DNA from: Crossaster papposus
Lineage: Eukaryota; Echinodermata; Asteroidea; Velatida; Solasteridae
Assembly (NCBI GenBank): GCA_037893245.1
Contig: JBAIAA010000599.1
Location: 2,356,001-2,420,000, forward strand
Direction of reading: 5' to 3'
DNA length: 64,000 nt
The position numbers and the translations under genes are program-made. Of the stretch, positions 3,856 to 61,823 are shown piece after piece; positions within the stretch are counted from its first letter, which is position 1, and every line of letters starts with the position of its first letter. Below the pieces are notes generated by a model. That model was not told the DNA's origin, made no database searches, and saw only the letters and a list, made by a program, of their open reading frames with translations.

Positions 3856-3863
3856 AGAATGAA

Positions 3864-4781
3864 ATGCGCCGGCTGTTAGACGCTTCAATAGCACCAGGTA
3901 CGCATAAAACATACGCAACAGGTTGGGCATCATTTTGTCGGTTTCGCCAACAAAGCATATCAGAGGGGCCCCCCGCGAAGGCATATGAGATCCGACAGTT
4001 TATAGCTTGGCTGTCATTACAATCAATTTCCCCATCTACAATTGCGACTTACGTGTCAGCAGTTGGATATAAACACAGGTTACAAGGCTGGCCTGACCCA
4101 ACTAAGGATTTTCTAGTTTCCAAATTACTCGAGGGGTGCCGTCGCACACGCCCCTCGCGCGATTCTCGCCAACCCATTTCTTTGCCTATGCTAAATCAAA
4201 TCGTGCAGTCGCTTCCCCATGTGTGTTCATCTCTCTACGAGGCAAAAATGTTTTCAGCCGCGTTTTTAAGTGCATTTTTTGGTTTTATGCGTATCGGGGA
4301 GTTCACGGCAAATTCTCGGTTTCACACTCAACCTTCAGTGATTACTGATTCGGATGTAGAATTTTCTTACCGCGATACCCAATGTCATGTTACCATTTCA
4401 TTCAAGCAGAGTAAGAATAATCAACATGGTGATCCGCAAACCGTATGTCTAAAGCCGTCCGATAATGTTTTCCTCTGCCCCGTGTCAGCACTGCTCACAT
4501 ATGCTCGGGTACGCCCCAATCATGCAGGTTCATATTTTTGTCATTTTAACTGTACCCCGCTTACTCGCTATCAGTTTAACGGGGTATTGAAGAAAGCACT
4601 GGCATTTAATAACATACCGGCTGACCACATTAAAGGTCATTCCTTGCGCATAGGGGCGGCCTCGGCGGCATATCGAATGGGGGTCCCTCAAACAAACATT
4701 CGGGCTATGGGTCGCTGGCGCTCGGACGCGGTCAATACATATATCCGTCCTCTGCCCATTTCTCCCTGGCCAGGCGTCTAG
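3864..4781 (+). CDS. tyrosine recombinase (Ngaro-type integrase), copy 1
   Basis: The 305-residue protein would integrate the circular DNA intermediate by site-specific recombination. The N-terminal part (residues 1-95) resembles a core-binding SAM-like domain. In the catalytic part I see the first Arg in GFMRIGEF, the HxxR box in HSLRIGAAS, and the nucleophilic Tyr in NTYIRP near the C-terminus, with WRS just before it, so the R-H-R-Y set is complete. It aligns along its whole length with the copy-2 recombinase, including matching ends. The start was taken at the ATG at 3864, which corresponds to the copy-2 start (MERLLLAS versus MRRLLDAS). Another ATG lies 6 nt upstream in the same frame. 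The frame is intact. Confidence 0.9.
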   Translation: MRRLLDASIAPGTHKTYATGWASFCRFRQQSISEGPPAKAYEIRQFIAWLSLQSISPSTIATYVSAVGYKHRLQGWPDPTKDFLVSKLLEGCRRTRPSRDSRQPISLPMLNQIVQSLPHVCSSLYEAKMFSAAFLSAFFGFMRIGEFTANSRFHTQPSVITDSDVEFSYRDTQCHVTISFKQSKNNQHGDPQTVCLKPSDNVFLCPVSALLTYARVRPNHAGSYFCHFNCTPLTRYQFNGVLKKALAFNNIPADHIKGHSLRIGAASAAYRMGVPQTNIRAMGRWRSDAVNTYIRPLPISPWPGV

Positions 4782-4817
4782 CACACTTGATTAATCACAG
4801 TTAAACGTTTATCTTAG

Positions 4818-5366
4818 TCCCAGTTATTTGCTGTCATTTACCTAATAGGTCCAGTATGGATAGTGGGAGATTCCATTGTGCTTGGGGCCGAAGCCCCTTT
4901 AAATCTTCCAATGAAAGTGATGTGGCGTGGTCTAAGCGGCGCCCACCTAAGCGATTTACCACAGCTGTTGACAAGTATACCTGAACCTCCCCCGTCAATC
5001 TTGATTATTCATCTGGGAACGAACGACCTGGTGGAGGTCGACGAATTTTCTTTCAGACAACGACTAGTCCTATCAATGCGCACATGTGCCGAACAATTCC
5101 CGCATACCACATTGATATGGTCAGATTTATTACCACGTCTGTACTATTTCGGGGCTCGGTCGCAAAGCGGGATGGAGAAGAAGCGGCGCACGCTCAATCG
5201 ATGGGCGCGGTCGCAAGGTAGTTGGCTGGGAGTTAGTAATTTACACCATCCACAGTTTAAGTGGACTGAGGCCGCGTTGTATAGGTTTGATGCTATACAT
5301 TTGTCACCTGTGGGCAATCGCATATTCCGTGATAACCTGTGCCAAGCCATTTCGGCCTTTTTGTAA
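4818..5366 (+). CDS. SGNH/GDSL-like hydrolase of Ngaro copy 1, probably a spliced exon
   Basis: This looks like an esterase-type SGNH hydrolase. Block I is VGDSIV, block III is HLGTNDL, and block V has the Asp and His in DAIHLSP, so Ser, Asn, Asp and His positions are all present. The domain is ~170 residues, short but complete. SGNH hydrolases have been reported in Ngaro-type elements; their role in the life cycle is not settled. There is no ATG in front of block I. The frame is open only from 4818, and similarity to copy 2 starts at VWI(V/I)GDS, directly after a possible splice acceptor CAG at ~4852-4854. The exon may therefore be joined to upstream sequence by splicing. It starts ~35-75 bp after the recombinase stop. 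Confidence 0.75.
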   Translation, partial: SQLFAVIYLIGPVWIVGDSIVLGAEAPLNLPMKVMWRGLSGAHLSDLPQLLTSIPEPPPSILIIHLGTNDLVEVDEFSFRQRLVLSMRTCAEQFPHTTLIWSDLLPRLYYFGARSQSGMEKKRRTLNRWARSQGSWLGVSNLHHPQFKWTEAALYRFDAIHLSPVGNRIFRDNLCQAISAFL

Positions 5367-24711: not shown

Positions 24712-24766
24712 GACGAGACTTTAACCTGCGACCAGACCGGCACTTTACCAATTGAGCTTCTCTTGT
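24712..24766 (-). mobile_element. second tRNA-like fragment
   Basis: The minus strand reads GAAGCTCAATTGGTAAAGTG (A-box-like D arm) followed by GCAGGTTAAAGTCTCGTC (decayed B box), but the anticodon and variable region are missing. This is probably a SINE fragment. It overlaps the false N-terminus of the transposase frame. Confidence 0.4.
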
Positions 24767-24799
24767 TTATTTGTGTATATTCATATTATATTTACACAG

Positions 24800-27178
24800 G
24801 ATGTGCAACCAGACAATTTTGATGGCAATGAGAGTGTCTCATCTGCTGGACTGAGCAGCTCAGATGCAGATTACTTATCTTCAAGTGACGACGATGATCC
24901 AACTGACCACTCGGATTCAACCAGTGAAGAGGATGGACATTCAAGCGAAGAGGAAGGTCATGGATTCGATGTTGATGAAACTCTAAACAACCCATTATGC
25001 CCAGGAATAGCTACTACTCGTGCAGAGGCATTGTTGTTGGTAATGTCCTTTGTGATGAGGTACGCTCTTTCCTCAGTAGCACTTGTTGGCCTTCTAAAGC
25101 TTATCAATGAACTGTTCGGACGACCCGTGTTAGTGGCAACAAAGTTTCTGTGCCAAAATATATTCAACAACAAGAGCCTTAGCTTTGTTTTCCATTTTTA
25201 TTGCCAACATTGCTTTAGTAAAGTTTGCACCTATCAAGAGGCCAGACCACATAGCATTCCTTGCCCTCAATGTCAGAGACCTTGTTTGGTGAAGAATCTA
25301 TCAAACGGTAATTTCTTTGCAACAACAAACTTGGGATTTCAATTTAAATCTTTATTTGAAACCCCCAACATTGCCAGAAATCTCTCCTACCGACGTACAC
25401 GAAATAAACTTAATCCTGATGGCATTGAGGATATATTTGATGGCGAAATCTATAAGAAGATGTGCCAGCCTGGGCAGCCTCTGTATAATGATACCAATTT
25501 TTCATATTCTTTTAATAGTGATGGGATGCCTGTATTTAAATCCTCTAAGTATTCGTTATGGCCAATTTATTTGATGTTGAATGAACTTCCTCCCAAACTA
25601 AGAAACGACAATTTAATTTTGGCAGGTGTTTGGTTTGGGAAGACTGAGCCGAAAATGAATATCTTTTTGAAAGAATTTGTTTCGGAAGCAAATAAGCTGA
25701 TAACTGAAGGTGTTCTTTGGAACGACAATGGGCAAGTTGTTCATAGTAAGTTGTATGGCATTTCATGCATTGTAGATGCACCAGCACGTGCAACTATGCA
25801 AAACACCATTCAATTTAATGGTTACATGGGTTGTGGGCTGTGTTATCATCCAGGAGTAAATGTTGAAAGAACAGTGAAATATCCCATCGATGTATGTGAT
25901 TATACTGAACGCACTGATCCTGAAATGTTGCAGGATATGATGACGGCTACTGATGAAGACCGGATTGTTAGGGGGGTAAAAGGACCCAGCCCTCTCATAA
26001 ATATTCCATACTTTCCCATTGTATGGGGCTTTCCTGTCGATTTCATGCACTGTGTCCTCCTTGGTGTGATAAGGCAGCTCACAGAATTATGGTTCGAGTC
26101 CCCTGCCGCAAGTGCATTTTACATTGGTTCAGCCAATAATGTGGTACGGTTAGATACCTTGCTGAAAGGAGTAAAACTTCCAAGTTTCATTCCTCGAGCT
26201 CAAAGGCCAGTATCAGAGCGGAAGTTCTGGAAGGCAAGTGAATGGTACACTTGGCTGTTGTTCTTGTCTCTGCCTTGCCTTTTGGGTGTCCTTCCAAATG
26301 ACTATTTTATTCACTTATGTACACTGATTGAAGGAATCTTTTTGCTACTCCAGAAGTCAGTTTCAGAAGCAGATGTTAATAGAGCAGACGTCCTCCTATA
26401 TTCATTTGTAGCAAACATGCAAATCTTGTATGGCCCAACAAGTATGACGTTTAATGTTCATTCCCTCACTCATCTGCCAAGAGGTGTACAGTTGTGGGGA
26501 CCCCTTTGGACGCACTCGTGTTTTCCGTTCGAAGCAGCGAACGGTAAAATTAAAGCCCTCCTTTGTGGCAATCGAGGTATTATAATGCAAACCATGTATA
26601 AATTCCTCATGGTTAAATCACTTCGTACTTTTAAATTGGCTTACAGAATATCTAATCGGACAAATACCTTCTGTGAAAATGTGTTGTTTGCAAGCAAATC
26701 AGTGCCATCGCAGGTTGTAGGTGAAATTAAGTTATTTGGAGTTGGTCAGATGATTTATTTAACACAACAAGAAGTAGCTGCCATTCAGTCAAGTGACTTT
26801 ATTGTTGGTAACGAGGTGTTGACGTTCAATAGAATGTCTATAAGGGGGCTGTCTTTTCACACTGTGCATTACCATAAATCTAAAACCAGAAATAACACAA
26901 TTGTTTCAACTGAAGGTGGGACAGTTGGAGAACTTCAAAGAATAATATGTACTGGCAACAATGAATGTATAATTCTGTTTAAAGAAATTTGTCTTGCTCC
27001 TGCAAATTCATTTTGTAACAGGGAGGTTGGTTGTGAAGTTAGTCACATCAAAGTATGCATTGATTTTCCAGACCGCATACATGTAGTTCTTGCTTCATCA
27101 GTTGTCAGAAGCTGCATATTCATAAAGTTAAGAAATCGTACTTATGTTTGCTTCCCTCCTAATTTTGTTGCTGTGTAG
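24800..27178 (+). CDS. EnSpm/CACTA-type (tnp2 family) transposase, main exon
   Basis: The ~792-codon open frame resembles animal EnSpm proteins with a tnp2-type transposase domain. After an acidic Ser/Asp/Glu-rich N-terminus (frame residues ~20-75) there is a zinc-ribbon-like set CxxC...CxxC (from ~150). Then come the family signatures ILAGVWFGKTEPKMN (~290), a DAPARA segment (~341), GYMGCGLCYHPG (~357), DFMHCVLLG (~429) and HSLTHLPRGVQLWGPLW (~569). The ATG at 24752 is rejected as the start: it lies in a tRNA-like fragment, and a good splice acceptor (TATATTTACACAG) ends at 24799. Upstream exons were not found. The frame is uninterrupted, so decay is limited. CACTR ends were not found nearby. 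Confidence 0.75.
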   Translation, partial: DVQPDNFDGNESVSSAGLSSSDADYLSSSDDDDPTDHSDSTSEEDGHSSEEEGHGFDVDETLNNPLCPGIATTRAEALLLVMSFVMRYALSSVALVGLLKLINELFGRPVLVATKFLCQNIFNNKSLSFVFHFYCQHCFSKVCTYQEARPHSIPCPQCQRPCLVKNLSNGNFFATTNLGFQFKSLFETPNIARNLSYRRTRNKLNPDGIEDIFDGEIYKKMCQPGQPLYNDTNFSYSFNSDGMPVFKSSKYSLWPIYLMLNELPPKLRNDNLILAGVWFGKTEPKMNIFLKEFVSEANKLITEGVLWNDNGQVVHSKLYGISCIVDAPARATMQNTIQFNGYMGCGLCYHPGVNVERTVKYPIDVCDYTERTDPEMLQDMMTATDEDRIVRGVKGPSPLINIPYFPIVWGFPVDFMHCVLLGVIRQLTELWFESPAASAFYIGSANNVVRLDTLLKGVKLPSFIPRAQRPVSERKFWKASEWYTWLLFLSLPCLLGVLPNDYFIHLCTLIEGIFLLLQKSVSEADVNRADVLLYSFVANMQILYGPTSMTFNVHSLTHLPRGVQLWGPLWTHSCFPFEAANGKIKALLCGNRGIIMQTMYKFLMVKSLRTFKLAYRISNRTNTFCENVLFASKSVPSQVVGEIKLFGVGQMIYLTQQEVAAIQSSDFIVGNEVLTFNRMSIRGLSFHTVHYHKSKTRNNTIVSTEGGTVGELQRIICTGNNECIILFKEICLAPANSFCNREVGCEVSHIKVCIDFPDRIHVVLASSVVRSCIFIKLRNRTYVCFPPNFVAV

Positions 27179-30426: not shown

Positions 30427-30966
30427 CTACATGCAGGACAATATACACTGACGCAGGTTTTCTACAAAGATGCTAATGCCCGAAGGGGACAGGTGAACTC
30501 CATCATACAAGTACAAGGAGCAATCAGACCACACAAACTGAGGGTGATGTAAACAGAATGCCTTTGGCAGTTTGGCACAAGCGGATCTGGCCCACCTATT
30601 GATAGTGCGGCGTTTACGTTCTAATGCTGGTTGGGAACGCGCACCAAAGTAAAAAACGCGAGGGAGGATGTCCGACCAAACCACCGTCATATTAGGGTAC
30701 CAACTTGCGCAATCATTGAGCATGACCGCGACTCTCATTCTAAAACCATACTCATCTATATTGACCAAGTCATTTGTCCCAATATGAATAATAAGCAAAC
30801 GCGGGGGAGTAAGAGTCTTGTCTACACTAGCCAACAGCCCAGAGAGATCGGAAACTCCGGCCCCGCCCTTTCCTTTCCAAAGCACATTCACAGACAGGTT
30901 GAGAGGTTCCTCTGCCCGTCGGACGATGGAGTCCCCAATAATCCATACGAAATCTAATGCAAGATT
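30427..30966 (-). CDS. SGNH/GDSL-like hydrolase of Ngaro copy 2
   Basis: SGNH hydrolase with block I IGDSIV, block III HIGTNDL and block V DGVHLSP. It aligns with the copy-1 hydrolase, including the conserved VWSDILPRVFYFGARSQ and RRTINRWARS stretches. The open frame begins at 30966 after a TAA and has no ATG ahead of block I. Similarity begins at FVWIIGDS, just behind TTGCATTAG, a possible splice acceptor. Both copies thus share a hydrolase exon without its own start. Confidence 0.78.
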   Translation of the reverse strand, partial: NLALDFVWIIGDSIVRRAEEPLNLSVNVLWKGKGGAGVSDLSGLLASVDKTLTPPRLLIIHIGTNDLVNIDEYGFRMRVAVMLNDCASWYPNMTVVWSDILPRVFYFGARSQPALERKRRTINRWARSACAKLPKAFCLHHPQFVWSDCSLYLYDGVHLSPSGISIFVENLRQCILSCM

Positions 30967-31050
30967 TTAAAATAAAAACAAAAACAACAACCCCAGACCT
31001 GTCAGTGACCGCACGTAGCAAGCAGACGGGACCGAGTCTGTAAATGATGA

Positions 31051-31986
31051 CTACGAGTCGTTCAGTCCCCCAAAATTGCAAGTCGGTAATGGCCGAATAT
31101 ATGACAGAAAAGCATTAGAACGCCAACGCCCCATAGCCTGAATGTCAGCGTTAGCCACCCCCAACTGTGATGCAGAAGATGCCGCCCCAATGCGAAATGA
31201 ATGGCCCCGAATATGGGCCCCCTGCAGACCCGCAAATTCAACAGCCTTCCGCAACACAGCATTGAACTGATACTGTGTTAATGGGCTGCCATCAAAATGG
31301 GAGAAAAAGGGGCCAAGAAAAGCAGGGCGAATTGCAACAAACCGCTGTAGCGCCAAAACAGGGCATAGAGACTTGTCGGCAGACTGCACCAGGCGAACGC
31401 ATTGAGGGGGGCCACGCTGATTGTTCTTAGAATTACGAAAATGAATAAGAACAGTTGCACTATGAAACTGATTATCAGGCTGGCAAAACTGTAAATCATG
31501 AAAACTGAGAACAGATTGTTGACAATAATGACTAGAAACAACAGCAAATTCCCCAACCCGCATAAAACCAAAAAATGCACTCAGAAAAACAGCCCGGAAT
31601 AAAATCATCTCAAATTGTGAGGAACACACCGCAGGTAACGAATGCAACACTTGTGCCAACAGTGGGAGGGAAATAGGTAGCCTATTATCCAAACTCGGGT
31701 GGAGTCTACGTGCGCCTTCAATTAACTTTGACGCCAAAAAATCCTTTGTTGGATCTGCCAGCCCCCTTAACTTATGGAAGTAACCCACTCCTGATACATA
31801 TGTTGAGATAGACGAGGGTGATAAACCTCTTAAGGACAGCCAAACTACAAAGTGTCGAATTTCTTCGACGGATGCTGGCGTATCACTTGCGAGAGGGTGC
31901 TGCCGGGATTGATTGAAAGCTCGCCATGCCGTCGCGTAAGTCTTGTGCGTGTTAGCTGAAACTGAGGCCAAAAGTAAACGCTCCAT
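31051..31986 (-). CDS. tyrosine recombinase of Ngaro copy 2
   Basis: The 311-residue integrase-like recombinase has the catalytic Arg in GFMRVGEF, HxxR in HSFRIGAAS and Tyr in LSYIRP, so the set is complete. The N-terminal domain (ANTHKTYATAWRAF; RHFVVWLSLRGLSPSSIS) matches copy 1. The ATG at 31986 lies 8 nt after the polymerase stop, the same spacing as in copy 1. The frame is uninterrupted. Confidence 0.9.
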   Translation of the reverse strand: MERLLLASVSANTHKTYATAWRAFNQSRQHPLASDTPASVEEIRHFVVWLSLRGLSPSSISTYVSGVGYFHKLRGLADPTKDFLASKLIEGARRLHPSLDNRLPISLPLLAQVLHSLPAVCSSQFEMILFRAVFLSAFFGFMRVGEFAVVSSHYCQQSVLSFHDLQFCQPDNQFHSATVLIHFRNSKNNQRGPPQCVRLVQSADKSLCPVLALQRFVAIRPAFLGPFFSHFDGSPLTQYQFNAVLRKAVEFAGLQGAHIRGHSFRIGAASSASQLGVANADIQAMGRWRSNAFLSYIRPLPTCNFGGLNDS

Positions 31987-31994
31987 TTCTTGGA

Positions 31995-33494
31995 CTACCA
32001 GATTAGGGGAATTGGAGGCAACGGCGTCATCACCGGGTCGGCCTGTGGAGCGACCTGACGGAATCGATCCATCTGAAATCGGGACAAAGCATCCGCCACG
32101 TCATTAAAACGCCCTGGCACATGAACTGCCTTTACTGATATATTGAATCGCAGGCACTGCAATACGAAAGGGCGGACCAGCTTCATAATGTGTGCACATC
32201 GGGAAGATTTCTTATTGAATATTTCGACGACTGCCGCATTATCCGAATGAAAAACAACTTTATGACCAGCCAAGAGCGGCGCCCAGCACAGTAGAGCAAT
32301 GTACAGTGGAAAAAATTCCAGAAATGCAATAGACGGGGAACTACGCCTTAGCTCCGCTGGCCACCGTGCTTGAACCCATTTGCCCTGGAAGTAAGCACCA
32401 TACCCCACACTACCGGCAGCATCCGTAAACAACGACAGGCTGTCACTGGATGCCCACTCGTCCTCAGCAAACACTGTTACACCGTTAAAATGAGATAAGA
32501 ACTCTAGCCAAGTAAGTAAATCTAGCCTAGCACCTTTGGATATGCGCACCATGTGATGGGGACGGGACAGACCTTGCGAAAGCGTAATCAAGCGACGCAA
32601 AAAGGCCCGTCCGGGTGGGATGGCCCGGCACAGGAAGTTGAGGGACCCAACAAGAGATTGAATGCAACGGAGACTAAGCCTGCGCTTTTGCAGTACTTGC
32701 TCGATAAGAACCGATGTAGCCAAAACCTTATTGGGCGGGACCCGCACCGTGCTATCTATAGTGTTAATTTCCAAGCCTAAAAATGTGATTACTTGCACAG
32801 GACCAACTGTTTTCTCGTCTGCCAAGGGGACCCCTAAATCAGCACAGATGGATTGGAAACTAGCTAGCAGCTGCGCACACTGCACATAGGTTGTACCAAC
32901 AAACAAAAAATCATCTAGATAATGCGTTACAAATACAGAATGGGCTGCAGATTTAACTTGAAACTCTAAAAAACTACTAAACTTCTCAAACAAAGAACAG
33001 GCAATACTACAACCCATGGGCAGACACCTATCAAAGTAAAAGGAACCTTCAAAAGTAAACCCCAACAGCTCATAGTCCAGTGGGGATACTGGAAGCAAAC
33101 GAAAAGCTGACTTAATATCTGCCTTAGCCAGCCATGCGCCTTTGCCAGCCCGTACAGCCAACGACACTGCTTTGTCAAACGAGGCGTAATGCACCGTACA
33201 GAGGTCCTTATTAATGAAATCATTGATCGAGTGACCTAGTGGGAACGAAAGGTGATGGATGAGGCGGAATGAATTGGGCTCCCGCTTTGGAACTAAACCA
33301 ATTGGTGAACATTGTAAGTTACAGAAAGTTCGGAGTGAGAAAGGCCCCGCTATCCTGCCCTGTGAAATTTCCGAGGACAGTTTCGCACGTACCACTTGAG
33401 GGCGCTCTATTGCCGAGGACAGACAATGTGAGTCACGTGGACCACGAGGGCCATCGTAGCCTATAGAAAAACCTGTTGTAAACCCGTTTAGCAA
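31995..33494 (-). CDS. reverse transcriptase-RNase H of Ngaro copy 2
   Basis: The RT active site is HYLDDFLFVG. The RNase H acidic residues are TDAAG, Glu in FLEFFP, HSDN and Asp in DVADALSRF, and the frame is intact. The listed start is a TTG; the phase stays open upstream through the gag stop at 33555-33553, continuing as KKRLLHYPLVNEAQ. The true N-terminus is therefore probably made by frameshifting or by another mechanism that joins it to gag (the polymerase is +1 relative to gag). The protein ends in TAG, 8 nt before the recombinase ATG. Confidence 0.88.
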   Translation of the reverse strand: MLNGFTTGFSIGYDGPRGPRDSHCLSSAIERPQVVRAKLSSEISQGRIAGPFSLRTFCNLQCSPIGLVPKREPNSFRLIHHLSFPLGHSINDFINKDLCTVHYASFDKAVSLAVRAGKGAWLAKADIKSAFRLLPVSPLDYELLGFTFEGSFYFDRCLPMGCSIACSLFEKFSSFLEFQVKSAAHSVFVTHYLDDFLFVGTTYVQCAQLLASFQSICADLGVPLADEKTVGPVQVITFLGLEINTIDSTVRVPPNKVLATSVLIEQVLQKRRLSLRCIQSLVGSLNFLCRAIPPGRAFLRRLITLSQGLSRPHHMVRISKGARLDLLTWLEFLSHFNGVTVFAEDEWASSDSLSLFTDAAGSVGYGAYFQGKWVQARWPAELRRSSPSIAFLEFFPLYIALLCWAPLLAGHKVVFHSDNAAVVEIFNKKSSRCAHIMKLVRPFVLQCLRFNISVKAVHVPGRFNDVADALSRFQMDRFRQVAPQADPVMTPLPPIPLIW

Positions 33495-33552
33495 CAGCTG
33501 GGCCTCATTAACGAGGGGATAATGTAAAAGTCGCTTTTTCAGAGCTGCAATT

Positions 33553-35433
33553 TTAATTGGCGTTGGGAGGACGAAAAGAATTGTTGGCTGGCGTAGCAGG
33601 GGCTGACTTTGGTTTGTTTATTGTTGGTGCAGAAACAAAGGCATTCCTACCGATACGCGCCCGCGGTGTGCGCGACTGCGCTCCCGCAGCGCCACCAGCA
33701 TTGACCCCACGCCCGAACTGACCCCCCACCCGACAGCGGGTAGCACCATGGCCCGGGCGCACACACCTAGAGCAAGTATGGGCAAATCTACAGTCCGAAA
33801 ATTGACAGCCGGAATGTGAATTAAAAGCGAAACAGTAACCAGGCCGAGATGGTGTGGACCGAGCCCCCGATGCAGGGTGATGCAGCGCGCCCCGGACTAC
33901 AGGGGAAGTAACGCCCACAGCCGCAACTGTGAGCCACAACTCAAAATCAATTTTTCCCCATGATCGTGAAGGATTTGCCTCTTGTTTGAGGCGGAACTGC
34001 TCGTCATAAGTACGCCACCCCAGGCCCGGGAACTGCAAGGAGGCAGTGCGAATTATTTCTGCGTATCGCAGCATTTCTGCCCAACGCGTAGAATGCTTCG
34101 TTAAAAATACGGCCATGTAAGTGTGAAAGGCTGACTGCCATATGTCAAAAGATTCGATCTTCTTTCGGTGAGGACCAGGTTTTTTAACTACAAGGTGTCC
34201 CCCCTCTACTGCCAAGGTTAGATCTGTCTTAGTGTCAGCCGACTTGGCCAACACTGCGCTAGCTGCATCGTTTAAAAGCAAAGAAAAATCTACAAATCCC
34301 CCTTGCCAAATTTTCTCTTTTACTGACTGAGGAACATGAAAACCCAGGGGAGTCTGAATTGAAGCCGCTAGCTCCGGGTGGTCGAGAGTTAGAGGCTGGC
34401 ACGACATATCTCGACCTAGGTCTATTGGATTAACATTACATGGAGGACAAGGTCTAGTATTAACATTACCATGGTTATGCATCTGACAGTCACATAACTG
34501 ACTCAACTCACCACCAACCCCTAACAGCCCATGGTGACTGGATACGGAACCATGTCCATCATGTCCATGCGGCGGCGCTCCTGCGGCTGCAAATGGAGCG
34601 GCTGCGGACGTGGCCTGGATCATGCATGAAGATGCGGCAGCGGCAACAGTAGGCCTAGGCCCGAAGCTACAGTTAATGTTATGCTGCACATGCCCTGCAT
34701 TCGGCGATGCCGCGTACACAGCACTACCCGAAGGGATTGACGAGGCAGACAGAGACTGTCCGAAAACTGGCACCCGCGACGCCGTACCGCCACACGAATG
34801 ATGGGTCCCCGCTGCCGGATTAACGTTGATGTTAGCCGCCGACGTGTGTGCTGAAGAAAAGCTTGAGGAAAACTCCGTCACTGGCACCGGAACAGGAACC
34901 GGAACGTCGAGACCAGCATCACGCTGAAGTGGTGGCCGATAGTTGTCATGGTTGGCGCCGGCGTTACCGTCAAGCACCGACGACCCAGCCCGACCCAGGC
35001 TGGTACTAGGCGCCACCGCTGGTGAAACCATAGTAGCACTAGCAGGAACCGGCACTGTATACCCGCCGACTGACGTGGCCATATTGGACGGTAGCCAGGG
35101 GGATCTGCCAGCCGTAGAAGTCATGCCCATGGTGGCGCTAGCTGAGAAAATGGGCGGGGTCGGGAACAGCAAGGTTGGGGGGCCGCTGCCAGCCCCACGC
35201 GCAGCGGAACCTGGGCCGGAGATCTCCCGCAGCACTTCAGCCGGACGAGATGGTGGCACCCCCTGTGGGAGGGGGAACGGTGTCGGCGCTCCACGCCGAG
35301 CTCGAGCGGCCGCCTTCCTCACCGTGGAACCATCGGTTGCCGTTCTTTTGCGCTTCAGCGCCGCTGCCCTAACTGCAGTGTCTGTAAAACGGGCCGGGCG
35401 ACGCCGAGAGCGCTGAAGGTCGCTACGATTCAT
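33553..35433 (-). CDS. gag-like protein of Ngaro copy 2
   Basis: The 626-residue protein starts with a basic Arg/Lys-rich N-terminus (residues 1-50), followed by a long Ala/Ser/Pro/Gly-rich low-complexity region (~50-330). A conserved part shares WQSAFHTYM and GWRTYDEQFRLK with copy 1. At the C-terminus lie a CCCH finger (C-x8-C-x4-C-x3-H) and a CCHC knuckle (CSRCVRPGHGATRC). The ATG at 35433 gives the full frame. Its coding DNA is more GC-rich than the surroundings. Confidence 0.82.
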   Translation of the reverse strand: MNRSDLQRSRRRPARFTDTAVRAAALKRKRTATDGSTVRKAAARARRGAPTPFPLPQGVPPSRPAEVLREISGPGSAARGAGSGPPTLLFPTPPIFSASATMGMTSTAGRSPWLPSNMATSVGGYTVPVPASATMVSPAVAPSTSLGRAGSSVLDGNAGANHDNYRPPLQRDAGLDVPVPVPVPVTEFSSSFSSAHTSAANINVNPAAGTHHSCGGTASRVPVFGQSLSASSIPSGSAVYAASPNAGHVQHNINCSFGPRPTVAAAASSCMIQATSAAAPFAAAGAPPHGHDGHGSVSSHHGLLGVGGELSQLCDCQMHNHGNVNTRPCPPCNVNPIDLGRDMSCQPLTLDHPELAASIQTPLGFHVPQSVKEKIWQGGFVDFSLLLNDAASAVLAKSADTKTDLTLAVEGGHLVVKKPGPHRKKIESFDIWQSAFHTYMAVFLTKHSTRWAEMLRYAEIIRTASLQFPGLGWRTYDEQFRLKQEANPSRSWGKIDFELWLTVAAVGVTSPVVRGALHHPASGARSTPSRPGYCFAFNSHSGCQFSDCRFAHTCSRCVRPGHGATRCRVGGQFGRGVNAGGAAGAQSRTPRARIGRNAFVSAPTINKPKSAPATPANNSFRPPNAN

Positions 35434-36000: not shown

Positions 36001-37018
36001 TTATATCTCATTAATTCCAGTTATAGACTGGGTCAATTTTCCAAAAAAATCAACCCTGAAGGCAAATTGTGTTAATTTATGGCATACAAGCTTTTTAGGG
36101 GTATTGAGGGGTGCTGAACTCAAATTTGCTGTATGCCAAGCTCAAAAATGTCCCATAATGCCTCAAAATTCAAAAATCCAAGATGGCCGCCACTGTTGAG
36201 TTAAAATGTATTTATGTGCATATCTTGTTTACCTAACAAGGTAGAAACTTAAATTAAATTTCCTTTTTTAGGTAATCACGTATGGGGAATCCAATGCCAT
36301 AAACAGTTTGAGAATAAAATGTGAAGAAATTGATTTAAACTAATATTTAATGCAAAAAAAATATGTTTTTTGTTGAAGATTAATAATAAATCAAAACGAT
36401 AATATTCAGCAGGTTAATCCTATGTATCCAGGGATGATTTACTTACCTTTCAGGTGTCTTTCTTTGCAAATAATTATGTTCAGGAATAATGTACTTACTA
36501 ACTTTGCAATTCTTTTTACATTGCAAATTGTTGAATTGCAGATAATTGTATCAAATACGCCGTAATAAAGTAGTTGATGTTAATGTGATGGACCAGAACA
36601 CCACCATAATTGTTGTTCATTAAAGTTCCATTCCACACTTTCACCCGCTGACCTCCGTTATTACTTACCGCTTTATTTGTAATGTTTATTTACTAACAAA
36701 GGTTTAGCGCCCTCACACTCACAGACGCATAAGCATCCACAGAGGACTCAACCCAAACATGTCTATTGTTTCTCTCCATGGTTCTGGTAAATACATGTTT
36801 ATTATTTTCCTACTGTTCAACCAGTGCATAACACATTAATATGGAATAATTTATTGTTATTTCATCAAGTATCTTGTGGTTTTCTGTTTTATAAAACATG
36901 TAGTTTAGATTGATTTGTATAACTTTGTATAACTTAGTATTAGATTGTATTACTAAAGGTGGTATTACCAACTCTTTTTATTGTAGGTCTGAATTAATCT
37001 ATCATCAGTAACAGAAAA

Positions 37019-37912
37019 ATGGCTGAAAGCACAGACCGTACTCGAAAAAGACCAGTGTCACTGGATCTACAATTATGCATCATATGCCAGAAGGAAACTA
37101 ACCAAAAGCTCATGACTGTCAGCAGTGATGGTCTCCAGTCAGTTGATACTATTAGGCAACTCCGGTCAAAATTAAACAATGACAATTTCCGAGAGGCAAC
37201 CGATCGACTTACTGGGATATTTCGTACAGACTCACCTCCACCATTCTTGTGGCATAAGGACTGCCGGTCTAGTTACATGAGTAAATGTAAAGTTGAGAGA
37301 TTAAGGAGTGCTGGGTTGAAAGAAATGAACGACCAATGTTCGTCTGCATCCAGATCAACTCATCTGCAAAATGTTAGTTTACGGAGCAAAACACCACAGA
37401 TAGATTGGAGGCAGTGTATCTTTTGTCAACATGATCAAAAAGAAACGCTTCATCTCATACAAGAAATGAAAGTCAGCAGAAGAATATTGGAAGCAGCGAA
37501 GTATGACCAAATCTTAAGAGTTCAACTAGCTTGCGTACATGATTTTACTGCTGCAGATGGGACATATCACAGAAGTTGCATCGTCCAGTTCGAACGTAAG
37601 ACCAAACGCATAGCAAATATATCACCCCAGAGCTCAGATATTACGTTAGCCTGGCTTTGCCAAGAACTTGAACAATCAGCAGAGCAAGGTGATATACTGG
37701 ATCTCACAAATGTGTGGGACAGGTACTGCACAATAGCTAGTAACGCTCAGATAGATATACCACCTTCATTTCTCAGTCGGAGGAACACATTCAAGGACAA
37801 AATAGCCGACCGTCTTGAGGGCATATTTGAAGTTGTTGTACTGCATGATCAGCCTAGAAATGAGCCTCGTACTGTATTGGTTCCAACCAAATTCCGGCAT
37901 ATTCCAGTATAA
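37019..37912 (+). CDS. Cys/His-rich N-terminal ORF of the FEN1/CXC element
   Basis: The 297-residue frame is preceded by a good splice acceptor (CTTTTTATTGTAG, ~36987). It contains two copies of a Cys/His module. The first is CIICQ (residue ~20) with WHKDCRSSY (~80); the second is CIFCQ (~139) with YHRSCIVQF (~184). Each pairs CxxC with HxxC ~50-60 residues later, suggesting two zinc-binding domains. The frame ends in TAA at 37910-37912 and is in the same phase as the next ORF, whose ATG is at 37916. Probably this is the N-terminal part of one ~1540-residue protein split by a single stop. I do not recognise a named family. Confidence 0.65.
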   Translation: MAESTDRTRKRPVSLDLQLCIICQKETNQKLMTVSSDGLQSVDTIRQLRSKLNNDNFREATDRLTGIFRTDSPPPFLWHKDCRSSYMSKCKVERLRSAGLKEMNDQCSSASRSTHLQNVSLRSKTPQIDWRQCIFCQHDQKETLHLIQEMKVSRRILEAAKYDQILRVQLACVHDFTAADGTYHRSCIVQFERKTKRIANISPQSSDITLAWLCQELEQSAEQGDILDLTNVWDRYCTIASNAQIDIPPSFLSRRNTFKDKIADRLEGIFEVVVLHDQPRNEPRTVLVPTKFRHIPV

Positions 37913-37915
37913 GCG

Positions 37916-40900
37916 ATGGTGAAAGAAGACACCACCGATAAAGTCATCCCTTCATTGGAACAAGAAGATACTGATACATTCTTGACCATGGTTCACGTGG
38001 CATTGCAAATCCGTGGTGACATGTTGTCACATCCCAAGCCAGAAGGGATAGACATCAGCGAAGACAGGGCAATAAACAGCATACCTGATAGCCTGTACAT
38101 GTTTCTGAACTTGTTACTAGGTGGTCAGCGTCTACTGGAGGAGGATGAACTGGACGAGGATAAGAATGAAGCCAGACGGCGGCTTAGAATCATCAGCATT
38201 GCTCAGGATCTTATGTACACAGCCAATGGAGACAAGTTCCTCACTCCGAAGCATATAGGATTGGCCAGTTCCCTTCATCAAGCTACACGTTCGAAAGAGC
38301 TGGTGAACATGTTTCACAAGGCAGGTCATGTCATGAGTTATCGAGATGTAATCAAACTTGACACTGCGCTGGCAAAGAAGACATTAGAAACCATAGATGA
38401 CGATGGTGCCGTTGTTCCCCAAAATCTAGTAAGGGGACGCTACGTCCATTTCTCCACGGACAACGTAGACATTAATGAGTACACTCTGGATGGAAAAGGA
38501 ACCTTCCATGCCACTCAAGTGGCTGCCTGGCAACGTGGTCCTCCTGAAGATGATATCCTCAGTGGGATAGATATTTCTAAGACAGGATCATTCCAAATCC
38601 CTGAGGCGATGACTGACATCATACCTGCATCAAACAGAGGAATTAAGGAGCGTCCATTCAGCGGTTTGATCGCAGCCGATTGTTTTACACAGTCATCTGA
38701 GGAATGTCTTTCAGCACAGAATGCGCACGCAACTGACATGGCCTTCATCATATCCCGGTCATCCCACAAACCAATGCCTTCCTGGACATTTTACAATCAA
38801 AAGGCAAGCACAGTTAACCCTGAGAAAACTACAGTTGGGTACCTACCTATCATACAGAATCCTGCATCTGAACTCGAAACTTTGAACACAGTTGTCAAGC
38901 GAGTGCTTCATGTGGCCAAATCGATGGAACAAAAGCATGTCGTACTGACAGTGGACGAGGCGCTTTACCCAAAGCTGCTTGAATTGAAGTGGTCAGTAGA
39001 AGAGTACAAGGACGTGCTTATACCTTGCCTCGGAGGACTTCACATTGCCATGAACTTTCTTGGTGTAATAGGGCGACACATGAGTGAGTCTGGCCTGAGT
39101 GAGCTATGGGTAGGGTGTGATCTTTTGGGATCCAATGCTGCGCAGAATGTCATGAAAGGAAAGGGGTACGCACGTGCCGTCAGGACACATAAACTTACCC
39201 TTCAGGCCCTTTGGCAACTACTCCTCCCACGGCTTTATACGTACCTAGATGGAGTTGATGTTACACTGAGAGACGAACTCTCAAATGTCTGCACAACCAT
39301 AGACGCCGACCACATTGCACAGATGGTTGACAAACTGACAACCGACAGATTTCAGCAGCCCATGAAAGAGTTCCCGGCAGCTCTTGCAGTTGATGACCCG
39401 AATGCTGAATTCTGGTGGAACTATATGACTATGGTCAGCATCCTACTCTGCTTCACAAGAGCGCAACGTGATGGATCTTGGGATCTCCACCTATATGCCT
39501 TCAAGCGTATGCTGCCATTCCTCTTCAGGTACGATCATGTTAACTACGCCAGGTGGGGTACTGTATACTTGGCTGAGATGTCGGCTCTCCCACCAGAAGT
39601 CCTCCGTGAGTTTCAAGAAGGCAACTTTGTAGTAAAACGCAGCGATCGACGCTTCAATCAGGTTTCGGCCGACCAAAGTACGGAATGGCTAAATGCTACA
39701 GGAAAAAAGAGTGGAGGCTTAGTAGGTATCACGAGAATAGCATCCGCACTCAGTAGATGGACATTGTCATACAATCTGAGAACAGTTATAGCTTCTCAGA
39801 CAAAAACATTGCTGAGCCTGACAATGGACGATGAAGACGATGAGTACACACACAATGAGTGCACGATAAGCAGGATGGAGAAAGACGACTCTGATGAAGG
39901 CAGCCTTGTTGTATCAATGGAACAGCATGGCTTGTTTCAAGATGGCAGTGGCAAATTGAAGAACATAATCACCAAGGATGTGGTCACGCCTGTGATTCAA
40001 GAATCTCTGCTTAGTGCGGAACACCTCGGACGGGCGCAAATGAAAGTCTTTGTAAACAAACGTCTGTGTGAACCTCCAGAAAGTAAACAGCACCTGGATC
40101 TAAAATCACCCATTCAAAAAAATAACGCCAAGACATTTGCCTCTTTGTACGAAGTCGTGAAACCTTCCAAAAGCAAGCAAAACACTATCAAAGTGGACAT
40201 GAATATTCTACAAAGGCTTTTAACAGCTTATAAAGCAGGGCGTGAGGTAAACCTAGAAAACATCCTCCAGCATGAACTCATGACCATCCCACTATCTTTG
40301 GCCACAACCAGTGGTAGTCTACATTCTACCAACAAGTCTGTGTTAGCAAACATTCTGACACAAGAAGTCCAAACTCCAGCAAATGTTACACTCGATCAGC
40401 CCAGCTGCCTGCTTATTGATGGCCAAGCACTCGTGATGGCAGTTGGAAAGCCGCCTGACATTAGAACGTTCGGAGACTATGCCAACACATTTGCTAACAC
40501 TGTGTTCAAGATGGGAGCAGAATACCAGAGGATCGACGTAGTCTTCGACAGGTACCAAGGAGAATCAATCAAAGCAGGTACAAGGACCAAACGGAAGCAG
40601 CGCCACCGACCGGTACGTCGTGTAATAGAAAATGAATCATCAGTTCCTCTCCCGTCAGACTGGTCTAGCTTTATGGCTCTCGAGGAAAATAAAGCAGATC
40701 TCGCACTACTACTTTCAAACCACCTGATTGAACACAGCCCGACAGATAAACCAGTGGTTGTAGTAGCTGGTGGGTTCGCCGAAGCGACCACTGTCAAGTC
40801 ATCTGATCCAGATCTTGAAGTCTCCTCTCTGAGGGCTGACCACGAAGAAGCTGATACCCGGCTGATTTTGCACTGCATCCATGCTCATATGGAAACGATA

Positions 40901-41638
40901 GTTGTGTCAGTACGTGATACAGATGTGCTTCTTTTACTTCTAGCACACTATGACAGAATGGGATGTACATCTCTCTACATGAAAGCCGGGACATCGAAGG
41001 CTCCAAAGTATTTACCAGTTCATGAAATTCGAAATTTGTTATCTCCTGATCTAGTGGACACACTTCTTGCCTTCCATGCTGTAACCGGCTGTGATAGTGT
41101 TTCTCAGTTTAGTTGCCACGGAAAGAAAACAGCCTGGAAGGTGTTCGAGCAACATCACACTGATCTGATTGGTCTTGGCAAAGGCCCTCTCACAAAAAAC
41201 ATCGCTATATCAACAGAAAAATTCATTTGTAAGATATATGGCGTGCCCAAAGTAGATACATGCAACAAAGCACGAGTCAAGTTGTTTTGTATTGGTCGTG
41301 CACAAGAGACTCTGCCACCAACCTCAGATGCAGCAACGTTTCACATCATGCGTTCACACTATCAAGCAAGTGTCTGGAATCAAGCACACCTGCCATATCC
41401 TGATCTTCCTCCAGTGACCGAAATGGGATGGATGCACTTGGACGGTCAGTTAGTGCCACGGCTACTCTCTCTGCCACCTATCCCTAAAGCTTGCAGGGAG
41501 ATCACCTCATGTGGTTGTACAAAGGGATGCCTTAGCTTGCGCTGCAGCTGCAGGAAAGTTCGCATGAAATGCATCGAGGCGTGCAACTGCAGGAAACTTG
41601 ACGACAACTGCCGGAACACTCATGACGACCAGGAATGA
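37916..41638 (+). CDS. large protein with FEN1/XPG-like (PIN-fold) motifs and a C-terminal CXC domain
   Basis: 1240 residues. Residues ~145-220 hold a conserved-looking segment (DNVDINEYTLDGKGTFHATQ). From ~831 the order of acidic motifs matches FEN1/XPG nucleases: LLIDGQAL; VVFDRY followed by basic KAGTRTKRKQRHR (compare VFDG and the following Lys/Arg stretch in FEN1); HEEADTR at ~975; RDTDVLLLL at ~999; VTGCDSVSQF at ~1056 (compare the FEN1 GCDY motif). The Asp/Glu residues of a two-metal nuclease centre are therefore present. Residues ~1193-1236 form a Cys-rich CXC domain of tesmin/TSO1 type (CGCTKGCLSLRCSCRK, CNCRK), known to bind DNA. Similar uncharacterised proteins are, to my knowledge, common in invertebrate genomes. 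The nuclease role is inference. Confidence 0.65.
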   Translation: MVKEDTTDKVIPSLEQEDTDTFLTMVHVALQIRGDMLSHPKPEGIDISEDRAINSIPDSLYMFLNLLLGGQRLLEEDELDEDKNEARRRLRIISIAQDLMYTANGDKFLTPKHIGLASSLHQATRSKELVNMFHKAGHVMSYRDVIKLDTALAKKTLETIDDDGAVVPQNLVRGRYVHFSTDNVDINEYTLDGKGTFHATQVAAWQRGPPEDDILSGIDISKTGSFQIPEAMTDIIPASNRGIKERPFSGLIAADCFTQSSEECLSAQNAHATDMAFIISRSSHKPMPSWTFYNQKASTVNPEKTTVGYLPIIQNPASELETLNTVVKRVLHVAKSMEQKHVVLTVDEALYPKLLELKWSVEEYKDVLIPCLGGLHIAMNFLGVIGRHMSESGLSELWVGCDLLGSNAAQNVMKGKGYARAVRTHKLTLQALWQLLLPRLYTYLDGVDVTLRDELSNVCTTIDADHIAQMVDKLTTDRFQQPMKEFPAALAVDDPNAEFWWNYMTMVSILLCFTRAQRDGSWDLHLYAFKRMLPFLFRYDHVNYARWGTVYLAEMSALPPEVLREFQEGNFVVKRSDRRFNQVSADQSTEWLNATGKKSGGLVGITRIASALSRWTLSYNLRTVIASQTKTLLSLTMDDEDDEYTHNECTISRMEKDDSDEGSLVVSMEQHGLFQDGSGKLKNIITKDVVTPVIQESLLSAEHLGRAQMKVFVNKRLCEPPESKQHLDLKSPIQKNNAKTFASLYEVVKPSKSKQNTIKVDMNILQRLLTAYKAGREVNLENILQHELMTIPLSLATTSGSLHSTNKSVLANILTQEVQTPANVTLDQPSCLLIDGQALVMAVGKPPDIRTFGDYANTFANTVFKMGAEYQRIDVVFDRYQGESIKAGTRTKRKQRHRPVRRVIENESSVPLPSDWSSFMALEENKADLALLLSNHLIEHSPTDKPVVVVAGGFAEATTVKSSDPDLEVSSLRADHEEADTRLILHCIHAHMETIVVSVRDTDVLLLLLAHYDRMGCTSLYMKAGTSKAPKYLPVHEIRNLLSPDLVDTLLAFHAVTGCDSVSQFSCHGKKTAWKVFEQHHTDLIGLGKGPLTKNIAISTEKFICKIYGVPKVDTCNKARVKLFCIGRAQETLPPTSDAATFHIMRSHYQASVWNQAHLPYPDLPPVTEMGWMHLDGQLVPRLLSLPPIPKACREITSCGCTKGCLSLRCSCRKVRMKCIEACNCRKLDDNCRNTHDDQE

Positions 41639-42360
41639 GTACACGTGTGCACATCTACATCTACTGCAGATATGGTAAACTCATGTAAATTACGTACAAT
41701 TAAATTCTTGTCATTGCTGTCATTTTACAAACAAATTGCTTGTCAAATGTTGGCTTAGGTAGAAGTGTGTGTCAGTGTTACTCGAGTATACCTTTGCTAA
41801 GCCAACATGGGTATTGCATCCATGAAGTTTTCCACTTACTTTAAACCAAATGTAATATGCCCTTTTAACCAACAAAAGGATGGTCTGTTTATTTGTTTTT
41901 TGTTTAGATGATCTTCCTGTCAAGCGGTCTATGTTCCTAGTGGGGAAGGAGAGCGATGAGCGTGCGGATCTTATTCGGTCGAAAAATTAGTAATCTTAAA
42001 AAGGGAACATTTTGGCGTTAAATACAAGTTTAAACCAGTTTCTTAACATTTTATCTCAAAACTGTTTGTGGCATTGGATTCCCCGTACATGATAACCTTA
42101 AAAAGGTAATTTAATTTAAGTTTCTACCTTGTTTAGTAAAAAAGATATGCACATAAATACATTTTAACTCGTCAGTGCATGGCGGCCATCTTGGATTTTT
42201 GAATTTTGAGGCATTATGGGACATTTTTGAGCTTGGCATACAGCAGATTTGAGTTTAGCACCCCTCAATACCCCTAGAAAGCTTGTATGCCATAAATTAA
42301 CAGAATTTGCCTTCAGCACTCTAAATATGCACATTTTTACAACTTTTGCCTAGTCTATTA

Positions 42361-44033
42361 TAGGTCCAGTTGAATCCCGTTAACAATCTCATTGGGACTT
42401 AATGGGATTCAACTGGAACACGACGTCCAGTTTAATATGTCCCATTGAAGTTAACGGGATCCATTATATCCCATTAATTCCAGTTGGATCCCTTAAAAAA
42501 TCTCAGTGGGAGTAATGGATTCAACTAGAACACCAAGTCCACTTGGGTCCAGTCTATTATGTCCCATTGCTGAAGTTAACGGGATCCCATTATATCCCAT
42601 TAATTCCAGTCCGGAATCTCGTTAACAATCTCATTGGGACTTAGATTCAACTGGAACACAAAGTCCACTTGGGTCCAGTCTATTATGCCCCATTGAAGTT
42701 AACAGGATCCATTATATCCCATTAATTCCAGTTGAATCCCGTTAAAAATATTATTGGGACTTAATGGGATTCAACTGGAACACAAAGTCCACTTGGGTCC
42801 AGTTTAATATGTCCCGTTGAAGTTAACGGGATCCTTCATATCCCATTAATTCCAGTTAGGTCCAGTTAAATCCAGTTAACAATCTCATTTGGACTTAATG
42901 GGATTCAACTGGAACACAAAGTCCACTTGGGTCCAGTCTATTATGCCCCATTGAAGTTAACAGAATCCATTATATCCCATTAATTCCAGTTGAATCCCGT
43001 TAAAAATATTATTTGGGACTTAATGGGATTCAACTGGAACACAAAGTCCACTTGGGTCCAGTTTAATATGTCCCGTTGAAGTTAACGGGATCCTTCATAT
43101 CCCATTAATTCCAGTTAGGTCCAGTTGAATCCCGTTAACAATCTCATTGGGACTTAATGGGATTCAACTGGAACACAACGTCAAGTTTAATATGTCCCAT
43201 TGAAGTTAACGGGATCCATTATATCCCATTAATTCCAGTTAGGTCCAGTTGAATCCCGTTAACAATCTCATTGGGACTTAATGGGATTCAACTGGAACAC
43301 AACGTCAAGTTTAATATGTCCCATTGAAGTTAACGGGATCATTATATCCCATTAATTCCAGTTAGGTCTAGTTGAATCCCATAAGTCCCAATGAGATTGT
43401 TGACGGGAATCCCGTTAACAATCTCATTGGGATTCAACTAGAATACGAAGTCCAGTTTAATATGTCCAATTGAAGTTAACGGGATCCATTTATATATCCC
43501 AGTAAGGTCCAGTTGGATCCCATTAAAAATCTGTGGGATTATTGGGATTCAACTGGAACACGAAGTCCACTTGGGTCCAGTCTAATATGTCATTGAAGTT
43601 AACGGGATCCATTATATCCCATTAATTCCAGTTGAATCCCATTAACAATCTCATTGGGACTTAATGGGAACACGACGTCCAGTTTAATATGTCCCATTGA
43701 AGTTAACAGGATCCATTATATCCTATTAATTCCAGTTAGGTCCAGTTGAATCCTGGAACACAAAGTCCAGTTGGGTCCAGTTTAATATGTCCCGTTGAAG
43801 TTAACGGGATGCATTATATCCCATTAATTCCAGTTAGGTCCAGTTAAATCCCATTAACAATCTCATTTGGACTTAATGGGATTCAACTGGAACACAAAGT
43901 CCAGTTGGGTCCAGTTTAATATGTCCCGTTGAAGTTAACGGGATCCCATTATATCCCATTAGGCCCAGTTGGGTCCAGTTAAGTCCAGTTAAGTCCCATT
44001 ACAAATTTCAACGGGATTCAATGGGATTCAACT
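42361..44033. repeat. satellite C, right segment (~122-bp unit)
   Basis: About 13-14 imperfect units of the same repeat as 29090-29669, with variation such as TGTCCCGTTGAAG versus TGTCCCATTGAAG and some truncated units. Near 43376-43430 a short inverted duplication occurs (CCCATAAGTCCCAATGAGATTG followed by its complement). The array ends in the 19-bp terminal repeat at 44034-44052. Confidence 0.88.
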
Positions 44034-49096: not shown

Positions 49097-49730
49097 CTAG
49101 TGCCCTGACGCCTTTCCCCGCCTTTGGATTACGGCTGGAATCACTTTGTGCAGGTGGTTGATGTAGCGCCTGCATTTGTCAGGTGTCATCTTGGTGTTCC
49201 AGAAATTACGGATGCCTTGAATGAGCTGCTCCTTGGTAGACGGTTTGACGTGCCTTCTCAAGTGGCCTTTAAGCTCTGCCCATACAGACTCGATCGGATT
49301 TAAATCGGGACTTTCTGCCGGAGTGTTCCACCAATTTATACCTAGTTCTGCAATAACGCGCCGCGCTTCCCCACAACAATGAGTGGGACAGTTGTCCTGT
49401 TGAAAACGGTGGCCAAAATAAAAAATTCTGGTCAGAAACGGGTGCAGCCAACGACGGAGAATAGTGTTGGAATAGAAATTTTCGTCCATAATGCCATCGA
49501 AAATCCCTATAGCTGTTGCCCCTCGCTTACTTATCCCTGCCCAAACATGGACTTTCAGCGGGTGTTTTGGTTTCCCCTTGAGGACAGCTGGTTGGTGCAA
49601 TTTTCGTAAACACTTTTTGGTATGCCGCTCGAGCTGAATTGAGCTCCCGTCTGACCAGATGACATCATCGAACGTGTCATGGTTATCAAGACACCGCTGC
49701 GCAAACTGAAGGCGTTTGGGCTGGTTGGTA
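49097..49730 (-). pseudogene. Tc1/mariner transposase, C-terminal two thirds (DD34E)
   Basis: This is the catalytic part of a Tc1-like transposase. The first Asp is in VIWSDGSS, the second in FQQDNCPTH and the Glu in SPDLNPIESVW, with 34 residues between the second Asp and the Glu. The frame enters the 11.7-kb insertion at 49731; residues upstream of TNQPKRLQFAQ in this frame come from the inserted element. The N-terminal part is at 61433-61823. With one TA removed, the two parts rejoin in phase and total ~340 residues, the normal Tc1 length. The gene was evidently intact when it was interrupted. Confidence 0.88.
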
Positions 49731-49798
49731 TGGAACGCCAAAGAGGCATTTAATGTGATCATCGAATCGGTGATATACTTTCACGATCGGTGATGGAC

Positions 49799-51649: not shown

Positions 51650-51679
51650 AAATACCTCACCCATACCTCACCCATACCT

Positions 51680-52659
51680 CACCCGTACCGCATCACCCGT
51701 ACCGCATCACCCGTACCGCATCACCCGTACCGCATCACCCGTACCGCATCACCCGTACCGCATCACCCGTACCGCATCACCCGTACCGCATCACCCGTAC
51801 CGCATCACCCGTACCGCATCACCCGTACCGCATCACCCGTACCGCATCACCCGTACCGCATCACCCGTACCGCATCACCCGTACCGCATCACCCGTACCG
51901 CATCACCCGTACCGCATCACCCGTACCGCATCACCCGTACCGCATCACCCGTACCGCATCACCCGTACCGCATCACCCGTACCGCATCACCCGTACCGCA
52001 TCACCCGTACCGCATCACCCGTACCGCATCACCCGTACCGCATCACCCGTACCGCATCACCCGTACCGCATCACCCGTACCGCATCACCCGTACCGCATC
52101 ACCCGTACCGCATCACCCGTACCGCATCACCCGTACCGCATCACCCGTACCGCATCACCCGTACCGCATCACCCGTACCGCATCACCCGTACCGCATCAC
52201 CCGTACCGCATCACCCGTACCGCATCACCCGTACCGCATCACCCGTACCGCATCACCCGTACCGCATCACCCGTACCGCATCACCCGTACCGCATCACCC
52301 GTACCGCATCACCCGTACCGCATCACCCGTACCGCATCACCCGTACCGCATCACCCGTACCGCATCACCCGTACCGCATCACCCGTACCGCATCACCCGT
52401 ACCGCATCACCCGTACCGCATCACCCGTACCGCATCACCCGTACCGCATCACCCGTACCGCATCACCCGTACCGCATCACCCGTACCGCATCACCCGTAC
52501 CGCATCACCCGTACCGCATCACCCGTACCGCATCACCCGTACCGCATCACCCGTACCGCATCACCCGTACCGCATCACCCGTACCGCATCACCCGTACCG
52601 CATCACCCGTACCGCATCACCCGTACCGCATCACCCGTACCGCATCACCCGTACCGCAT
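51680..52659 (+). repeat. perfect 14-bp minisatellite, 70 copies
   Basis: The unit CACCCGTACCGCAT repeats without visible variation for 980 bp, exactly 70 units. Degenerate CACCCATACCT units precede it. All three plus frames stay open because 14 is not a multiple of 3 and the unit has no stop, which creates two long but spurious ORFs. Confidence 0.95.
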
Positions 52660-53073
52660 CACCCGCACGAGGACACCCGCACGACGTCACCCGCACGACG
52701 TCACCCGCACGACGTCACCCGCACGACGCCACCCGCACGACGCCACCCGCACGACGCCACCCGCACGACGCCACCCGCACGACGCCACCCGCACGACGCC
52801 ACCCGCACGACGCCACCCGCACGACGTCATACGCACGACGCCACCAGCACGACGCCACCAGCACGATGCAACTCGCACAGACGCAACCCGCACAGACGCC
52901 CCACGCACAAAGCCCCACGCACAAAGCCCCACGCATAAAGTCCCACGCGCAACGCCACACGCGCAACGCCACACGCGCAACGCCACACGCGCAACGCCAC
53001 ACGCGCAACGCCACACGCACAACGCAACACGCACAAAGCCACACGCACAACGCCACACGCACAACGCCACCAC
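52660..53073 (+). repeat. diverged 14-bp units continuing the minisatellite
   Basis: The same 14-bp period continues with drifting units: CACCCGCACGACGT, then CACCCGCACGACGC, then CACGCACAAAGCC-type, then CACACGCGCAACGC. Blocks of identical variants show successive local expansions. Confidence 0.9.
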
Positions 53074-61340: not shown

Positions 61341-61432
61341 AGACCATCACTCGATTACAAAAGTCCATCACCGATCGTGAAAGTACATCACCGATTCGAT
61401 GATCACATTAAATGCCTCTTTGGCGTTCCATA

Positions 61433-61823
61433 GGGTGGCCTCTCGGATGAGCTGGCAGTACTGTGTACCCCTCGAGACCCATCCGAGTTTTGCAACAGCC
61501 CGCCGAATGCTGGACTGCCCAATATTGACACCGGTTTCCCGGTGAATACTGTCCTGCAGGTCCTGCGCTCTAAGTTCATTGTCGCGCTCAAGCTCGCCAT
61601 CGATGATGTCAAGAATTTGAAGCGTAATTTTGCTTTTGCGGCCAGCGATTGGCAGATCACTAAGACATCTAGTCCCCCGCACCTTCTTTAAGAACTTACA
61701 TATGCCACTCTTGGAAACAATCAAACCGTTACAAAGGAGGTCAGCTTGTATCGCCTTAGCACACAGGCCTCGGGCATTCAGCTGTACGATGCGACGACGA
61801 GTGGCCGCGCTGTAACGTGCCAT
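61433..61823 (-). pseudogene. Tc1/mariner transposase, N-terminal DNA-binding part
   Basis: The frame starts at the ATG at 61823 (MARYSAATRRRIVQL). It contains two helix-turn-helix regions separated by a GRKSK motif equivalent to the GRPR AT-hook-like linker of Tc1 proteins, then RRAVAKLGW. It runs to QLIREAT at the insertion site; the rest of the frame (61432-61368) is inserted sequence. It is the missing N-terminus of the transposase at 49097-49730. Confidence 0.87.

Follow-up and report, generated by a model that had tools for sequence, protein, structure and literature searches.

An AcademX-like DNA transposon family of Crossaster papposus encodes predicted DDE-type transposase and FEN1/XPG-like nuclease domains in one protein

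A 64,000-nucleotide stretch of the Crossaster papposus genome (hereafter the window; assembly GCA_037893245.1, contig JBAIAA010000599.1, positions 2,356,001–2,420,000) carries a DNA transposon at 36024–42357. We assign it with high confidence to a recently mobile family of the Academ superfamily and, by comparison with published descriptions, to the nuclease-bearing lineage AcademX. Its protein of about 1,540 amino acids (aa) joins Cys/His modules, a DDE-type transposase domain, a FEN1/XPG-type nuclease domain, and a CXC domain. An earlier sequence-only reading had presented the unit as lacking a known transposase, and this claim of a transposase-free transposon is corrected here; the large domain left without assignment is modeled as a DDE-type RNase-H-fold transposase.

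Copies and boundaries of the element

The first 1,477 bases of the element were used to search the assembly that contains the window (1.02 Gb, 1,841 contigs). Full-length matches lie at eight places, including the window copy, and one further copy is truncated on the left, so the genome holds other copies with the same terminal inverted repeats (TIRs). Over the whole element, the seven other full copies are 99.1–99.6% identical to the window copy and the left-truncated copy 97.5%; counting substitutions only, the full copies differ pairwise by 0.13–0.40%. The termini TAGACTGGG and CCTAGTCTA are common to all eight, their flanks (400–500 bp) are dissimilar, and the similarity breaks at the same two bases in all of them. 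Each is flanked on both sides by a perfect 3-bp duplication (TTA, TTA, TAC, GAA, CTA, AGA, AGA, and TGG), and the chance of eight matching triplets is about 4e-15 if equal base frequencies are assumed. Since near-identical copies share their ends and are bordered by perfect, varied 3-bp duplications, the element is mobile and has moved recently. Eight copies with the same ends and perfect duplications also rule out chance inverted repeats. Two short partial TIR matches (L017 and L018) contain no intact terminus.

The window copy (+ strand) spans 6,334 bp, and comparison of the flanks of the copies places its TTA target-site duplications at 36021–36023 and 42358–42360; the boundaries and TTA flanks of the sequence-only reading were thus exact to the base. 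Inverted-repeat comparison of the window defines the left TIR at 36024–36358 (+) and the right TIR at 42010–42357 (−), with paired segments at 36056–36192/42180–42316 (137 nt, 97%) and 36191–36358/42010–42177 (168 nt, 87%). The outermost ~32 bp have in common mainly the terminal TAGACTGGG/TAGACTAGG.

The insertion site is a 124-bp satellite, in agreement with the earlier reading. Joining the flanks of the window copy gives CCAGTTATAGGTCC, and among the satellite units listed, five that span the join in the alignment have CCAGTTAGGTCC; a sixth aligns with a larger gap. Directly after the right duplication, a TA at 42361–42362 is extra relative to nearby satellite units; the satellite core lacking this TA has six exact occurrences in the window and one more with a single mismatch. 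The joined-flank form with TA, taken as the empty-site sequence, has no match in the window at up to 3 mismatches or in the genome at up to 2 mismatches over 30 bases. Target duplications, proposed as a check at other insertions, were recovered at every full copy. A slip of TA, either preceding or following the insertion, is the simplest reading of the extra bases, and filler bases at the junction are also possible.

Domain organization of the encoded protein

In the window copy, a TAA codon at 37910–37912 splits one long gene region into a 297-aa frame (37019–37912, +) and a remaining 1,240-aa frame in the same phase (37916–41638, +). The former holds the N-terminal Cys/His modules, recognized by eye from the translation and consensus, and the latter the transposase, nuclease, and CXC domains. 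The stop codon is missing from three other copies. An uninterrupted frame of 1,539 aa is present in three of the eight copies (L010, L012, and L013) and one of 1,534 aa in a fourth; the other four, including the window copy, are interrupted. Residue numbers of the three domains hereafter refer to the 1,240-aa frame, and residue conservation was counted over an alignment of 57 rows.

The region between the Cys/His modules and the nuclease (residues ~172–628; 38429–39799, +) yields a confident model of a DDE-type RNase-H fold, with D182 or D185, D347, and E590 as the putative D-D-E residues. D347 and E590 are found in all 57 rows. Of the 50 rows listed in the structure comparison by VIA-align, DDE transposases, RAG1, and retroviral integrases fill the first 36, and the best match among solved structures is the P-element transposase. 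Foldseek alone gave no significant match to the DDE fold (best E 0.42, RAG1), and sequence searches of the PDB were negative for the 1,240-aa frame at E up to 1 and for both alignments at E up to 10. The case for the domain rests on the VIA-align comparison together with the residue conservation, and the window protein bears, by prediction, a DDE-type transposase domain. A Pfam match to DUF6589 (residues 296–595) falls within it; this family, to which Pfam assigns no function, is tied by the same prediction to the catalytic domain of a DDE transposase and could be re-annotated.

The sequence-only reading had instead suggested a kind of transposon that lacks a DDE transposase and uses a structure-specific nuclease to move. 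The conserved acidic residues of the nuclease would suit such an element, as would Foldseek and sequence searches that by themselves do not expose the DDE domain. However, the confident RNase-H-fold model, the VIA-align matches headed by the P-element transposase, and the presence of D347 and E590 in every row speak against an element of this kind, which we reject as very improbable.

The nuclease itself was recognized correctly. The predicted fold of residues ~806–1168 (40331–41419, +) matches structures of EXO1, FEN1, and XPG, and acidic motifs lie at residues 835, 878, 977–980, 1001–1003, and 1060. The acidic residues (D835, D878, E978, D980, D1001, D1003, and D1060), which we take to pair with single residues of FEN1, are conserved. 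The PIN-like fold and the acidic active site that characterize the FEN1/XPG nuclease superfamily are thus both present in the predicted domain. The tesmin/TSO1-like CXC domain (41492–41611, +) was likewise found at the expected C-terminal place. The Pfam match to PF03638 in the last 52 residues is weak (E 0.016; score 16 bits, cut-off 23.5), and the cysteines are kept in 45–48 of the 57 rows, the remainder being nearly all gaps.

Relatives and further families

With the window frame as the query, 95 related proteins were found at E ≤ 0.001 (7,992 candidates scored), and a distant relative as the query returned 472, of which 120 were listed. Hosts among the matches listed are corals (Porites and Oculina), a sea urchin (Diadema), a sea cucumber (Apostichopus), amphioxus (Branchiostoma), an annelid (Capitella), a fish (Coilia), and a crab (Chionoecetes). 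Two related proteins come from bins labeled Sedimenticola and probably represent host contamination. A profile built from ten relatives matched nothing but the first of its own sequences. One 745-aa gene model of Chionoecetes opilio (P0095) combines transposon-protein-like pieces with a pseudouridine-5′-phosphate glycosidase domain (PF04227) and is either a gene-model chimera or a captured fragment.

A translated search of the same genome gave at least 40 matches including the window family, with relatives 40–53% identical; 37 of 2,613 candidates were scored, so this number is a lower bound. The twelve relative loci that were read belong mainly to three multi-copy families, and all except L038 have the right end CCAGTCTA (11 of 12). 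Extra upstream DNA was taken for five copies (C639, C119, C1186, C302, and C140). C639 and C119, of one family, have ~440-bp TIRs with 93–94% identity, TAGACTGG termini with TAGACTGGG at the left end, and duplications CTT/CTT and ATA/ATA. C1186 and C302, of a second family, have ~320-bp TIRs at 81%; the TAGACTGG terminus of C302 is present with a non-matching flanking triplet (CTA/ATA), and the left terminus of C1186 is altered. C140 retains an inverted repeat, and its left terminus was not found. Among these five, the duplications match in two, do not match in one, and could not be judged in two. The copies L033 and L034 diverge on the left, with no recognizable terminus in the DNA read (no upstream DNA fetched).

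The gene therefore lies between TIRs in two further families of the same genome, which speaks against gene copies consistently standing outside TIRs. It also bears on a non-autonomous TIR unit that has captured a host nuclease gene, for which the interrupted frame of the window copy might be cited. Full-length fused relatives are common, the gene sits between TIRs elsewhere, and three copies have an uninterrupted frame; we reject the capture of a host gene on these grounds and regard its probability as close to negligible.

Classification

Academ is counted as one of the DDD/E-transposase superfamilies (PMC9587614), and the duplication lengths of Academ elements are related to the encoded helicase and nuclease, AcademX having 3–4-bp duplications and a nuclease and AcademH 9–10-bp duplications and a helicase (PMC10045372). 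In bivalves, the mean length of curated Academ elements is 5,565 bp (PMC10294476). The present family has 3-bp duplications at all eight full copies, a nuclease by predicted fold and conserved residues, and a DDD/E transposase by prediction only (RNase-H fold and D-D-E residues), and TIRs delimit both this family and the further ones. Since the DDE transposase, the nuclease, and the 3-bp duplications fit the published AcademX description, the element is most readily seen as a new AcademX family and not as a new kind of mobile element. The AcademX nuclease is reportedly of the XPG type, and Academ proteins are said to carry a Cys-rich finger. Among the papers searched, none names both Academ and XPG as whole words and none names DUF6589; on transposons with CXC, XPG, PIN, or RNase H domains, the one paper returned was an unrelated review.

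The likeness to AcademX is one of published description, which leaves some room for an undescribed superfamily of its own, similar to AcademX through convergence or distant relationship. However, the transposase, the nuclease, and the 3-bp duplications are all as published for AcademX, and an XPG nuclease is not known to us from any other superfamily of eukaryotes. We consider a separate superfamily unlikely and prefer the new AcademX family.

Proposed mechanism and significance

In a cut-and-paste cycle, the Cys/His and CXC modules would bind the TIRs, and the DDE domain would cut the TIR ends and join these to target DNA with a stagger of 3 bp. The nuclease may process the excised ends or the insertion gap by trimming 5′ flaps or branched strands. 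Because its frame is split by the stop codon, the window copy would rely on an uninterrupted one. Both active sites, DDE and nuclease, are conserved across distant relatives. We tentatively raise the possibility, which we hold to be rather doubtful, that transposition requires the XPG-like nuclease as a second catalyst and that the two domains divide strand cleavages or end trimming within one polypeptide. If so, the transpososome would contain two nucleases, unlike that of any characterized cut-and-paste element. No experiment on the role of the nuclease in the transposition of such elements is known to us, and the near-identical copies, some of them uninterrupted, would make this family suitable for such work.

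Other features of the window

Retroelements with reverse transcriptase and tyrosine-recombinase (phage-integrase) open reading frames (ORFs), DIRS/Ngaro-like by layout, lie at 687–5366 (+) and 30427–35433 (−). The latter also has a GDSL-lipase ORF, and an ORF of similar appearance is present in the former. An 808-aa ORF at 24752–27178 (+) matches Transposase_21 (tnp2; E 1.7e-8), a CACTA/EnSpm-like transposase. Tc1/mariner-like pieces lie at 49097–49762 (−) and 61368–61823 (−), recognized by a DDE_3 domain (E 5.5e-14) and by a helix-turn-helix match below threshold. A tandem array at 51679–52665 consists of 70.5 copies of a 14-bp unit at 100% identity.

Comparison with known systems

The element shares the DDE-type transposase, the nuclease, the TIRs, and the 3-bp duplications with AcademX, and no difference from the published description was found. 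AcademH belongs to the same superfamily by name but has 9–10-bp duplications and a helicase (PMC10045372), and AcademH is ruled out here on duplication length (3 bp at all eight copies). Pfam matches for the window protein and for six relatives include no helicase, and a second gene was sought only via the ORF list.

The P-element and hAT (Hermes) transposases share the RNase-H fold, including a long helical insertion ahead of the last acidic residue, but their identity to the DDE domain is 7–8%. These transposases have no nuclease domain and make 8-bp duplications. The 5′ nucleases FEN1, XPG, and EXO1 share the fold, the acidic active-site pattern, and the basic arch residues with the nuclease described here, whereas the latter is fused to a transposase and is 10–16% identical to the listed chains of these three enzymes.
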